A stretch of DNA of 64,000 bases from positions 1-64,000 of the forward strand of contig JAQGPJ010000025.1 of the NCBI GenBank assembly GCA_028293125.1, written 5' to 3'. Source of the DNA: Verrucomicrobiales bacterium (GTDB lineage: Bacteria; Verrucomicrobiota; Verrucomicrobiia; Verrucomicrobiales; V1-33). The number at the start of each line of letters is the position of its first letter. The stretch's first letter is position 1. Below the pieces are notes generated by a model, which saw only the letters and a program-made list of their open reading frames with translations, searched no databases and was not told the origin of the DNA. Below, piece after piece: positions 23,921-57,294 of the stretch. The translations under genes were made by a program, and so were the position numbers.

Positions 23921-23956
23921 TGTTCCACTCAGTCCATCCTGTCCACTCAATCCACC
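23921..23956. repeat. Nonamer word array (TCCAYYCNN)
   Basis: Four 9-nt words run in tandem: tccactcag, tccatcctg, tccactcaa, tccacc. They sit between the start of the SNF2 gene and the 3' end of the HD phosphohydrolase gene. The same word type occurs inside pbpC at 42452-42490. Confidence 0.75.
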
Positions 23957-23965
23957 CCGAATTTC

Positions 23966-38349: not shown

Positions 38350-41043
38350 ATGGCCGCCTGCGGTTTCACCGTGACCGGCAAGGGTGACGGAGGCCGCAGT
38401 CTGCAGCAGAATGCGGAACTGACCCTGAAGACCGCGCGTCAGGACTGGCAGAGCGGTGAGAATCTGGAGGTCAGTCTGCGAGCTCCCTTCACCGGTGCCG
38501 GCCTTATAACCATCGAGCTGGAGAAGGTGCTGGGCTGGAAGTGGTTCAAAAGCGCGGACAAGGAATCCATCCAGACCATCCCCGTGCCGGAAGGGCTGGA
38601 GGGCACCGCCTATGTGCAGGCGGCCTTTGTCCGGGCCGTGGACTCGCCGGAGATCTTCATGAGTCCGCTGAGCTATGCCGTGCAGCCCTTCCGGGCCAAC
38701 TACGCCCGCCGCCTGCTGCCACTCACCCTGGAGGTGCCGGAGCGCATCCGGCCCGGTGAAACCCTGCGCGCCATCCTGCGCAGCCCGGTGCCGGCCCGCG
38801 CGGTGGTGTACGCCGTGGACGAGGGCATTCACCAGATCACCAACTACACGCTGCCCAATCCCCGGGACTTCTTTCTGCGCCCGCGGGCGCTGGAGGTGGA
38901 GACCTCCCAGATTCTGGACCTGCTGATTCCGGAATACACCCTCCTGGGCCGGAGCCGGGCCTTTGGCGGCGACGGCGGTCCGGAGCTGAACATGAATCTG
39001 AATCCCTTCCAGCGGAAGCGCGAGGCTCCGGTCGTTTACTGGTCCGGCCTCGTGAGCACCAGCCCGGACGGGGTGGCGGTGGAGTATCCGGTGCCGGATT
39101 ATTTCGCCGGTCAGCTGACCTTCATGGCCGTCGCCGCCGGCGGGGAGGGGTATGGGGCCGCGCAGGCCAAAACCATCGTGAGGGGGCCGTTCGTGCTGAC
39201 CCCCAATGTTCCGGTTTTCGCCGCGCCCGGCGACACCTTCACGCTGTCTCTGACCGTGGCCAACAACGTGGAGAACGCCGGGGCGGAGGCCGCCCGCGTG
39301 TCCACCCGCCTGACCGGCACGCCGAACATCACCGTCACCCGCAGCCCCGATCCGGCGGACATCGCGCCGGGCCGCGAGGGCACGGTGCGGTTTGAAATCA
39401 CGGTGGGTGAGCCCTTGGGCAACGCCTCCCTCACCTTCCACGCCGACGCCGCCGGACAAAGCGCCGAACGCACCGTGACCCTGAGCATCCGCCCGGCCTC
39501 GCCGCGCATGACCACCGTGCAGAGCGGTTACTACCGCCAGCCGGATCACGTGGTGAAGCCCCAGCGGACGATGTATCCGGAATTCGCGGCGCGGGAGGCC
39601 TCGGTCTCCGCGCTGCCGATGAATCTGGCGCGCGGGCTGGCCCAGTGGCTGGAGGAATTTCCCCACGACTGCACCGAGCAGATCATCAGCCGCGCCATGC
39701 CGCGCCTGCTGCTGCATACGGACGCCTCCTTCGGCTTTGACCGCGCGGCCGCCACGGCGGACCTGGACCGGGTCTTCGCCCGGCTGCGGGGCCGGCAGGC
39801 GGCCAATGGCCGCTTCGGCCCGTGGTCCGATGCGGCGGAGGGCAGTCTCGACTTCCTGACGGTTTACGCCGCCGACTTCCTCCTCAGTGCCAAGGAGGCG
39901 GGATTCGCGGTGCCGGAGGACCTACTGCGTCCGACCGTGAAAAGCCTGAGGGAAATAGCGGCCATGAACCCGCAGGGCACCTTGGAGCAGACCACCCAGG
40001 CGCGGGCCATTTACCTGCTGACCCGCTCCGGCGAGGTCACCACCAACTACCTGCTGAACCTGCGCGACACGCTGGAGAAAGCCGATCCCGCCTGGCGCAC
40101 CGGCCCATGCGCGCTGTGGATGGCCGGCACCCACGCCCTGCTGCGCCAGGACAAGGAGGCGGAGGCCATCGTCAAGGACTGGAGGGCCGCTAAAAAACCG
40201 GCGCTCCGCCTATGGAATTTCTGGCAGGAGCAGCCGCTGGCGCTGGACGCGCTGGATCTGGCGCTCCTGAGCCGGCACTTCCCGGCCATCGCGGGCAAAC
40301 TGAATTACGATGACCTGCAGCCGGTGCTGACCGGTCTGGAGAAGGCGGAATTCAACACCTACTCCGCCGCCTGCTGCATCCAAGCCCTGAAAGCGTGGTC
40401 CGGTCTTCAGCAGAAGTCAGGCGTGCAGACCTCCCTGACGGAGCTGGGCGCCAACGCCGCGTCCCGGCTGCTCGCGCCGCCCGGAGCCGGCCTGCTCACC
40501 GGTGTCTTCACGGAGGGGGCGTCGGGCCTGCAGTTCGGTCTTCACCGCCCGGAGGGAGCGCCGGACCTGGGAGCCTATTATCAGGTGGTTGAAAGCGGCT
40601 TTGACCGTGGACTGCCGGCAGCCCCGGTGCGCAACGGACTGGAGATCGCCCGCCGCTGCACTGCGCTGGACAGCCAAGGGCCCAAGGACGGTCTGCCCGT
40701 CGGCACCAGCGTGAAAATGGAAATTCTGCTGCGGAACCTGACCGGGGCCGAATTGGAGAATCTGGCCATCGTGGACCTGCTGCCCGGCGGCTGGGAGGTG
40801 AAGTCGGGCAGTCTGCGCCCCGGTCCTGGCGGCGCGCCCGGCGCGGACTCCGTGGACATGCGGGAGGACCGGAACATCTTTTACTGCGGTCTGGCGGGGC
40901 GGGGCACGAGGGTGTTCACCTATCAAATCCGTCCGGTCTGCGCGGGCGCGGTGACGGTGCCGCCGGTCTTCGCCAACTCCCTGTACCGGCCGGCGGTGCA
41001 GGCCCGGAGCATGGCCGATAAAATCAAATCCGTCCCGCAGTGA
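38350..41043 (+). CDS. Alpha-2-macroglobulin family protein, C-terminal part with thioester
   Basis: This 897-codon frame is the continuation of the upstream half. The ATG at 38350 is only the first in-frame Met after the frameshift; homology begins at about 38230. It holds the A2M domain (RPGETLRAILRSPVPARAVVYAVDEGIHQ, PVVYWSGLVSTSPDGVAVEYPVPDYFAGQL) and the thioester motif C-T-E-Q (codons 39670-39681, about residue 1542 of the intact protein). That motif is the reactive bond that captures attacking proteases. An alpha/alpha barrel and a receptor-like beta domain follow. The TGA overlaps the GTG of pbpC (GTGA), indicating translational coupling. Confidence 0.9.
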   Translation: MAACGFTVTGKGDGGRSLQQNAELTLKTARQDWQSGENLEVSLRAPFTGAGLITIELEKVLGWKWFKSADKESIQTIPVPEGLEGTAYVQAAFVRAVDSPEIFMSPLSYAVQPFRANYARRLLPLTLEVPERIRPGETLRAILRSPVPARAVVYAVDEGIHQITNYTLPNPRDFFLRPRALEVETSQILDLLIPEYTLLGRSRAFGGDGGPELNMNLNPFQRKREAPVVYWSGLVSTSPDGVAVEYPVPDYFAGQLTFMAVAAGGEGYGAAQAKTIVRGPFVLTPNVPVFAAPGDTFTLSLTVANNVENAGAEAARVSTRLTGTPNITVTRSPDPADIAPGREGTVRFEITVGEPLGNASLTFHADAAGQSAERTVTLSIRPASPRMTTVQSGYYRQPDHVVKPQRTMYPEFAAREASVSALPMNLARGLAQWLEEFPHDCTEQIISRAMPRLLLHTDASFGFDRAAATADLDRVFARLRGRQAANGRFGPWSDAAEGSLDFLTVYAADFLLSAKEAGFAVPEDLLRPTVKSLREIAAMNPQGTLEQTTQARAIYLLTRSGEVTTNYLLNLRDTLEKADPAWRTGPCALWMAGTHALLRQDKEAEAIVKDWRAAKKPALRLWNFWQEQPLALDALDLALLSRHFPAIAGKLNYDDLQPVLTGLEKAEFNTYSAACCIQALKAWSGLQQKSGVQTSLTELGANAASRLLAPPGAGLLTGVFTEGASGLQFGLHRPEGAPDLGAYYQVVESGFDRGLPAAPVRNGLEIARRCTALDSQGPKDGLPVGTSVKMEILLRNLTGAELENLAIVDLLPGGWEVKSGSLRPGPGGAPGADSVDMREDRNIFYCGLAGRGTRVFTYQIRPVCAGAVTVPPVFANSLYRPAVQARSMADKIKSVPQ

Positions 41044-43400
41044 AACGGCTGCGGGCGGTTTGGCGGCGGTGCCGCTGGCTGGTGCCGGCGGCGCCGCTGC
41101 TGCTGTGGCTGGCCTGGTTGGCTCTGCCGGCGGTGCCATTGCTGCCCCCGGAGAAAACCTGGTCCCGCCGGGTCATGGACCGCGGCGGGAAACTGCTGCA
41201 TGTCACTTTGGCCAATGACGGGCGTTACCGGCTGTGGACGCCGCTGGCGGACCTGCCGCCGGATCTGGCCGCCGCCACCCTGGCCCACGAGGACCAGCGC
41301 TTCCGGAGTCACCGGGGAGTGGACCCGCGCTCCATCGGCCGGGCGGTTTGGGGCGTGGTCAGCGGCCGGCGGCTGGGCGGCGGCTCCACCATCAGCATGC
41401 AGCTGGCGCGGCTGAGGTTCGGACTGGAGACCAGAACCTGGTCGGGCAAAGCCGTTCAGATGTTCCGCGCCCTGCAATTGGAGCGCCATTACTCCAAGGA
41501 CCAGCTGTTGGAGGCCTATCTGAACCTCGTGCCCTGCGGCGGCAATGTCGAGGGCTCCGGCACCGCCAGCTGGGTTTGGCTGGGCAAGCCGCCGTCGGCC
41601 CTGACCTTCCGGGAGTGTGTGGCCCTGAGTCTGGTCCCCCAGCGGCCCGCCCGCCGAAGTCCGGCCCGCCCGGACGCCGATCCCACCGCCGGTCCGCTCC
41701 AAAGCGCGGTCATTCAGGCGCTCCGGGGCCGCAGTGAGCCGCAGGATGCCGGCTTCCATCTCACCGCCGTGTCCCGGCCACCCCGCACGGCTCCCCATTT
41801 CACACGGGAAGTCCTGCGCCGCGGCACCGGCCCCGTGGTTTCAACCTCCCTGGATGCGGCATGTCAGGAAACCGTGGAGCGGACCCTGCGGGATTTTCTG
41901 CGCCACGCCGCCCAGGAGGGTGTGCGCAATGCCAGCGCGCTGCTGGTCCACGCGCCCACCCGTGAGGTCCGCGCGTGGGTGGGATCGGCGGATTTTTTCG
42001 ATGCCGACATTCAGGGGCAGGTGGACGGCGTGCGGGCCCGGCGGTCGCCGGGGTCGGTGCTGAAACCCTTCATCTACGGCCTGGCCATTCGTCAGGGGCT
42101 CATCCTGCCCCAGACTTTGGTCACCGACGCCCCGGCGGTCTTCAGGGACTACAATCCGGAGAACTATGACCGCGGTTTCGCCGGCCCCATCCCCGCCGCC
42201 GAAGCCCTGTACCGCAGCCGCAACCTGCCGGCCATCCAGTTGCTGAGCCAGCTGCGCAAACCCGATTTTTATTCCTTCCTCAAGCTCGGCGGCGTTTCCC
42301 TGCCGCACCCGGCAGGACACTACGGTCTGGCCCTTGCTCTGGGCGCGGAGGAGGTCAGCGTGAAGGAGGTGGCCACCCTCTACGCCATGCTGGCCGATGA
42401 CGGCCTGCCACGCCCCCTCCAATGGACCTTGGCCCAAAGTTCCACAGCCCCTGTCCATCCTGTCCATCCCGTCCACTCAGTCCATCCACCCGCCCCGCCC
42501 GCGGAAACATCCCCCTTTTCCCCCGGTGTGCGCTTTCTCGTGCGATCCATGCTGCACCCCCGCCAGCCCGCTCCCACCGATGAGGCCTGGACCGCCGGCT
42601 TCCCCGGCGTGAGCTGGAAAACCGGCACCTCCCACGGCTGGCGGGATGCCTGGGCCGCGGCCATTCACGGCGAGTATGTGCTGGTGGTCTGGGCCGGGGA
42701 CTTCAAAGGAAAACCCAATCCCGCCCTGACCGGACGCCGCACCGCCGCACCGCTGCTGTTCTCCATTCTCGGAGCGCTGCGGCTGCCCTGTCCGCCCGAT
42801 GAATCCCCGCCGGATCTGCGGCGCGCGGAGTTCTGCGCCGCCTCCGGCGATCCGCCGGGGCCTCATTGCCTTCAACGGACCAGCGGATGGTGTCTGCCGG
42901 GGATTTCCCCAGTCCGCGCCTGCACCCTGCATCAGGAAATCCTGATCGACACCGCCACCGGCCTGCGGGTGCCCACCGACGACGGACGACCCGGCCTGCG
43001 CCACGAAACCGCGGAAATCTGGCCGCCGCATCTGCTGGAGCTGTTCCGCCGGGCCGGTGTGCCCCGCGTCCAGCCGCCGCCTTTTGAGACAGCGGCTGCC
43101 ACGGCCGCGGCCGGCGGGGGCCGGGGCGGCAACCGCTCGCCGCGCATCGTCTCGCCCGTGGCCGGGCGCACCTACACGCTGCGGTCCGGCGACGCCGGGC
43201 GGCGGACCATCCCGCTGCAGGCGGAGGCCGCGCCCGGCGTGACGAAACTGTTCTGGTTCTCGGCGCGGGAATTCCTGGGCTCCACGGACCCGGCCACTCC
43301 CTGGCTGTGGCATGCGGTGCCCGGATCCCCGCAAATCCGCGTGATCGACGACCAGGGCCTAAGCGCCTCGTGCCCGGTCCGGGTGGAACTGGTGCCGTAG
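41040..43400 (+). CDS. pbpC: Penicillin-binding protein 1C (bifunctional glycosyltransferase/transpeptidase)
   Basis: The 786-residue inner-membrane peptidoglycan synthase starts at a GTG overlapping the alpha-2-macroglobulin stop. A membrane anchor (about 12-35) is followed by a GT51 glycosyltransferase (LAHEDQRFRSHRGVDPRSI, LGGGSTISMQLARL). The transpeptidase shows SVLK (in RRSPGSVLKPFIYGLAI), SRN (YRSRNLPA) and KTGTS. A BiPBP_C beta domain closes the protein (IVSPVAGRTYTL). The A2M-PbpC pairing is known in other bacteria and is thought to repair cell-wall breaches together with protease trapping. A His-Pro-Val array (PVHPVHPVHSVHP) encoded by 42452-42490 interrupts the transpeptidase domain between the SRN and KTG motifs. 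Confidence 0.93.
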   Translation: MKRLRAVWRRCRWLVPAAPLLLWLAWLALPAVPLLPPEKTWSRRVMDRGGKLLHVTLANDGRYRLWTPLADLPPDLAAATLAHEDQRFRSHRGVDPRSIGRAVWGVVSGRRLGGGSTISMQLARLRFGLETRTWSGKAVQMFRALQLERHYSKDQLLEAYLNLVPCGGNVEGSGTASWVWLGKPPSALTFRECVALSLVPQRPARRSPARPDADPTAGPLQSAVIQALRGRSEPQDAGFHLTAVSRPPRTAPHFTREVLRRGTGPVVSTSLDAACQETVERTLRDFLRHAAQEGVRNASALLVHAPTREVRAWVGSADFFDADIQGQVDGVRARRSPGSVLKPFIYGLAIRQGLILPQTLVTDAPAVFRDYNPENYDRGFAGPIPAAEALYRSRNLPAIQLLSQLRKPDFYSFLKLGGVSLPHPAGHYGLALALGAEEVSVKEVATLYAMLADDGLPRPLQWTLAQSSTAPVHPVHPVHSVHPPAPPAETSPFSPGVRFLVRSMLHPRQPAPTDEAWTAGFPGVSWKTGTSHGWRDAWAAAIHGEYVLVVWAGDFKGKPNPALTGRRTAAPLLFSILGALRLPCPPDESPPDLRRAEFCAASGDPPGPHCLQRTSGWCLPGISPVRACTLHQEILIDTATGLRVPTDDGRPGLRHETAEIWPPHLLELFRRAGVPRVQPPPFETAAATAAAGGGRGGNRSPRIVSPVAGRTYTLRSGDAGRRTIPLQAEAAPGVTKLFWFSAREFLGSTDPATPWLWHAVPGSPQIRVIDDQGLSASCPVRVELVP
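42452..42490 (+). repeat. Nonamer word array inside pbpC, in frame
   Basis: Words tgtccatcc, tgtccatcc, cgtccactc, agtccatcc run in tandem and add about 13 residues (V-H-P/S-V-H) without breaking the frame. The same word type forms the intergenic array at 23921-23956. The period of nine keeps any copy-number change in frame. Confidence 0.8.
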
Positions 43401-55471: not shown

Positions 55472-55480
55472 TATAAGGAA

Positions 55481-55598
55481 GGTAAAAGGGTTCAGGGTTC
55501 AGAAGGGCTGTTGTGGATTTCATCAGCAAAAATCCCCGCATTTTCCAGCCTTTCCCTGAACCCTGAACCTTGAACCCTGAACCCTGAACCCTTTTACC
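55481..55598. repeat. 22-bp perfect inverted repeat enclosing CCCTGAA heptamers
   Basis: The arm at 55481-55502 (ggtaaaagggttcagggttcag) is exactly complementary in reverse to 55577-55598. The right half contains five tandem heptamers CCCTGAA (55554-55588, the third CCTTGAA), and the left arm carries two complementary copies. Partial pairing continues inward (aagggctg with cagccttt). The transcript would fold into a long hairpin just after the giant TPR gene and could end or stabilise its mRNA. Confidence 0.85.
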
Positions 55599-55649
55599 TC
55601 TTTTAGCCCATTGACCGTTGTTCAGGCTGCGCGTAAGCGGCTGGGACGC

Positions 55650-57179: not shown

Positions 57180-57188
57180 GGGGGAAAG

Positions 57189-57286
57189 TTCTCAGTTTTA
57201 CAGTTTTCAGTTTTTAGAAATGAAGCTGAATCCGCATGCTGAAGCCGGGAGGTATTGCTCACGGCGTTCTGAGAACTGAAAACTGT
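57189..57286. repeat. CAGTTTT word array with inverted copies
   Basis: The left side (57189-57215) repeats tcagttt/acagttttcagtttt. The right side (57269-57286) carries the reverse complements ctgagaac and ctgaaaactgt. The two sides can pair to form an imperfect long hairpin downstream of pgsA. It belongs to the same kind of short-word intergenic DNA as the other arrays. Confidence 0.65.
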
Positions 57287-57294
57287 TAAATCAA

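Follow-up and report, generated by a model that had tools for sequence, protein, structure and literature searches.

The VHP tract in the transpeptidase domain of pbpC is most likely a solitary array of a dispersed 9-base repeat, which either originated in a variable PBP1C loop or landed there, and which has been tolerated in frame. In the window, the 64-kb stretch of DNA that was analysed, pbpC (41040-43400, + strand) encodes a penicillin-binding protein 1C of 786 aa. The product gave a full-length equivalog match to TIGR02073 (635 bits), with the Transgly, Transpeptidase and BiPBP_C domains and the SXXK, SXN and KTG motifs all present. The residues concerned, S339-K342, S393-N395 and K527-G529, are common to the products at L039/L040. 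An alpha-2-macroglobulin family gene (38350-41043, + strand) lies directly upstream with a 4-base overlap, and the two genes form the usual A2M-pbpC pair.

The array consists of four exact GTCCAYYCN units, in order GTCCATCCT GTCCATCCC GTCCACTCA GTCCATCCA, at 42453-42488 on the + strand. Viewed as exact TCCAYYC units with a 9-base spacing, it reads TCCATCCTG TCCATCCCG TCCACTCAG TCCATCC at 42454-42487. In the frame of pbpC each nonamer is read as GTC-CAT-CCN, V-H-P, and the array encodes VHPVHPVHSVHP (V472-P483), downstream of S393-R394-N395 and upstream of K527-T528-G529-T530-S531. The claim of the preliminary description that tandem TCCAYYCNN words add V-H-P residues in frame between the SRN and KTGTS motifs was thus confirmed for residues 472-483. 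The site that it had given, 42452-42490, was also right, but not its exact limits, since the nonamer units run from 42453 to 42488.

The codons of the tract were distinctly different from those of the gene around it. GC3 was 0.46 in the tract compared to 0.83 in the remaining pbpC, and rare codons were concentrated here, with two of the four CCT codons and one of the two TCA codons of pbpC falling within the tract. Codon choice so unlike that of the gene argues for a DNA word that happens to be read as protein, not for selection on each residue of a peptide.

The genome (6.48 Mb in 120 contigs) was covered completely by pattern searches, and about 1 Mb of it (60 stretches and the window) was read directly. 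The exact two-unit pattern gave 68 matches genome-wide and none for the reversed control; the genome-wide count that the preliminary description had called for therefore revealed a multi-copy dispersed word. In the window itself, 7 matches with at most one mismatch were found against 0.44 expected, and none of 100 shuffles reached 7. Moreover, eight exact four-unit arrays were present in the 1 Mb read, compared with none for the reversed control. The consensus of the unit is TCCAYYCNG, the commonest units being TCCACTCAG and TCCATCCCG, which are mixed in arrays of two to six units. The words that had been reported to recur between genes at 23921-23956 were recovered as a solitary array (23924-23957, + strand, between two genes), whose four exact units belong to the family seen in pbpC.

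The arrays were unevenly spread: 13 of the 68 matches fell on one 82-kb contig (C38), and an unbiased 400-kb sample contained none, where evenly distributed arrays would have given about four. The same contig (L041-L044) also carries many heptad arrays. Most arrays were intergenic and only a handful of about 51 lay inside supported genes, as sorted by open frames, GC3 and context rather than by formal gene calling. The family is a dispersed short tandem repeat, lineage-specific and patchy in its occurrence. A perfect six-unit array was found at C55:45150-45201. On visual inspection, a four-unit array in a further stretch (L055:6673-6706) seems to overlap the stop codon of a gene with a C-terminus similar to that of anthranilate/chorismate synthase, and the repeat may supply that stop; the opposite strand carries a perfect six-unit array at a distance of about 450 bases.

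Arrays were also seen in other genes. A GT9 glycosyltransferase gene carries an array-encoded VHPVHP, and none of 13 homologs showed it. In a kinase gene (L050) there is a four-unit array in antisense, and a DnaC/IstB-like gene (L057) has an array near its N-terminus, encoding a VHP linker. For these two proteins the homologs do not extend over the array, and only the GT9 case was comparable. Two-unit matches in genes can arise by chance: a match in L067 was rejected as a family member, since it proved to be the ordinary GMDGME motif of a receiver domain.

The preliminary description had named absence of the VHP tract from pbpC of close relatives as support for recent insertion. Twelve homologs from several families of the order and from two other Verrucomicrobiales MAGs, about 41-53% identical to the pbpC product, were compared. 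The VHP tract was absent from all 12, with an alignment gap at the repeat. The opposite outcome, a VHP tract kept in distant PbpC proteins with other codons, did not occur among these 12. The extra length compared with the homologs was about 17-21 residues, which exceeds the 12 residues of the repeat, and the difference from these distant proteins is therefore not a clean 36-base addition. At about 41-53% identity, the homologs neither date nor bound the insertion.

The homologs vary in length between the preceding helix and the pre-KTG helix, and PBP1A has a far longer segment here. The loop position of the array is one at which class A PBPs are very unequal in length. Since this loop is already length-variable, a neutral linker was taken as the default reading, and the array probably has no effect on PBP1C.

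In all, 51 arrays were examined with their surroundings, using a criterion slightly looser than the exact two-unit pattern. Heptads in one fixed orientation flanked 19 of the 51 on both sides, compared with 7 of 5000 random positions. Seven arrays had heptads on one side only, and 25 were solitary, including both arrays of the window, although some of these 25 are chance pairs. The heptads were GGGTTCA, GTTTTCA or TTATTGG before the array and TGAACCC, TGAAAAC or CCAATAA after it. Many composites have a common core; its end, CTTTCAGTTTG, immediately precedes the array, and TGCAGCC immediately follows the array. In six cases, two of the 51 arrays faced each other on opposite strands less than 600 bases apart. 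No heptad arms or core sequence were found up to 200 bases from the pbpC array, and neither the pbpC site nor the one composite element examined folded better as a single strand than its shuffles.

We next consider the relatives. The sister-genus genomes G008, G011 and G012 contained 55, 32 and 20 pattern matches, respectively, and the same-genus genomes 2-12, which is near background. G012 and G011 align over about 10 kb at 94% identity, and an orthologous intergenic array in this block had four units in G012 and three in G011, with identical edges and an exact 9-base difference, showing that single units are gained or lost in the family. The length variation considered in the preliminary description was therefore borne out for the family, as a change of one whole unit. 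A second pair of arrays, L113 (G008) and L116 (G011), was discarded as orthologs; the arrays are alike, but the aligned block fails to bridge them. Long adjoining intergenic arrays of related 9-base words, including GTCAATAAG, GTCCGATCC and CCGCCCATC, were seen in G008 and G011 (L109-L126).

Across the phylum, three-unit arrays were present in 18 of 388 genomes, mostly each with its own word variant. The heptad pair TGAACCCTGAACCC was found in 52 of the 388, and the reversed control was near zero in nearly all genomes. The class is patchy and has been amplified repeatedly. Verrucomicrobiota families in which the pair TGAACCCTGAACCC was strongly over-represented are scattered (e.g., G382, G260, G187 and G400), with up to 240 matches in one genome against 0 for its reversed control.

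These observations are consistent with the following course of events. The nonamer repeat has multiplied in this species; most copies lie between genes, and roughly one third to one half belong to a small composite element, which has a common core between inverted heptad arms. One array may have arisen or landed in the transpeptidase domain of PBP1C, in its variable loop. Arrays of the family lengthen or shorten by whole 9-base units, presumably through slippage or unequal recombination. In pbpC the nonamers are translated as (V-H-P)n, a flexible, proline-rich linker that the protein would tolerate. The unit length is divisible by three and this frame is free of stops, which allows the array to be read through and to persist. 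The pbpC copy presumably entered by the route of the family, may still vary in length and is likely to be functionally neutral.

A tract of this kind might instead be an ordinary proline-rich linker that evolved at the protein level and resembles the intergenic word by coincidence. The adjoining residues (PPAPPAE) are likewise proline-rich, the GT9 glycosyltransferase and the DnaC/IstB-like protein have VHP linkers too, and coding chance can produce two-unit matches, as the receiver motif of L067 illustrates. Four exact units built from the family's own word variants, where the reversed control gave 0, are nevertheless hard to reconcile with coincidence; together with tract codons that depart from the gene and the lack of the tract in all 12 homologs, they make this explanation improbable. 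It is also quite improbable that a complete composite of heptad arms, core and nonamers transposed into pbpC and then lost its arms, leaving the array as a remnant. That 19 of 51 arrays sit in fixed-orientation composites, a rare arrangement at random places (7/5000), speaks for such an origin, but the 200 bases to either side of the pbpC array contained neither heptad nor core, and 25 of the 51 arrays are equally solitary, even if some of them are chance pairs.

The position of the array between two catalytic motifs, in a family that varies by whole units, could also suggest a selected, tunable loop whose unit number adjusts the transpeptidase. This is highly improbable: the tract is not conserved in any of the 12 homologs, no length variation of pbpC was observed (the nearest homologs being about 50% identical), and an AlphaFold model built with three sequences had a mean pLDDT of 36.8, too poor to place the loop. 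A solitary array of the dispersed repeat, tolerated in frame, accordingly remains the preferred reading of the pbpC tract.

Dispersed heptameric repeats are known from Xanthomonas (GGGAATC) and Nostoc (GGGGA(T/C)T) (PMC4692102), and tandem heptanucleotides of the STRR type from Calothrix (mentioned in PMC4692102). Like the Xanthomonas and Nostoc heptamers, the present family has tens to hundreds of dispersed arrays of at least two units, an intergenic majority and a genic minority, pairs facing on opposite strands, and lengths that differ between related species. Unlike those G-rich heptamers, its unit is C-rich and of 9 bases, with a period that keeps the reading frame, and many arrays are tied to inverted heptad arms. 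Compared with the STRR type, the dispersed excess, the intergenic majority and the variation in unit number (G011/G012) agree, but the unit is not of seven bases; the family was therefore filed under dispersed short-word tandem repeats broadly, not as an STRR heptamer. The TGAACCC, TGAAAAC and CCAATAA heptads of this genome do have the seven-base unit.

Rickettsia palindromic elements occur in frame in unrelated protein genes, where they are tolerated (review PMC10969869). The pbpC array is likewise repeated DNA in frame inside a protein gene, but those elements are palindromic and about 150 bases long, whereas the array has 36 bases without inverted arms or significant fold. The intergenic composite modules, with inverted arms and many copies, resemble MITEs and REPINs; unlike MITEs, the pbpC array is without terminal inverted repeats. 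As in the simple sequence repeats of contingency loci, tandem units are gained or lost singly, but a 9-base unit cannot frameshift a gene off and so provides no phase-variation switch.

Dispersed repeats with units of 6-9 bases have received little study, reports being rare (PMC4692102), and our literature search found no report on nonamer repeats in Verrucomicrobia. The Verrucomicrobiota nonamers are a new family of an already known kind, the dispersed short-word tandem repeats. The analysis documents a nine-base dispersed family in Verrucomicrobiota, partly tied to inverted heptad modules, and pbpC is one clear case in which a nonamer repeat contributes residues to an enzyme. The period of nine makes the repeat unusually compatible with coding sequence. 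We speculated further that nonamer arrays and heptad arms are one recombining Verrucomicrobiota small-element system, which repeatedly seeds in-frame tripeptide repeats in protein loops; this is doubtful, but if true, new linkers would originate from the system.

Modules with inverted heptad arms at their ends were also observed between genes in the window, at 55480-55600 and 57185-57290, and, likewise intergenic, in L043, L059, L060, L064, L065 and L132. Their arm pairs were GGGTTCA/TGAACCC, TTTTCAG/CTGAAAA and GGTTATT/AATAACC, that is, differing heptads around similar cores, with or without a nonamer array. They look like a modular family of small elements, which may be of more interest than the pbpC array.
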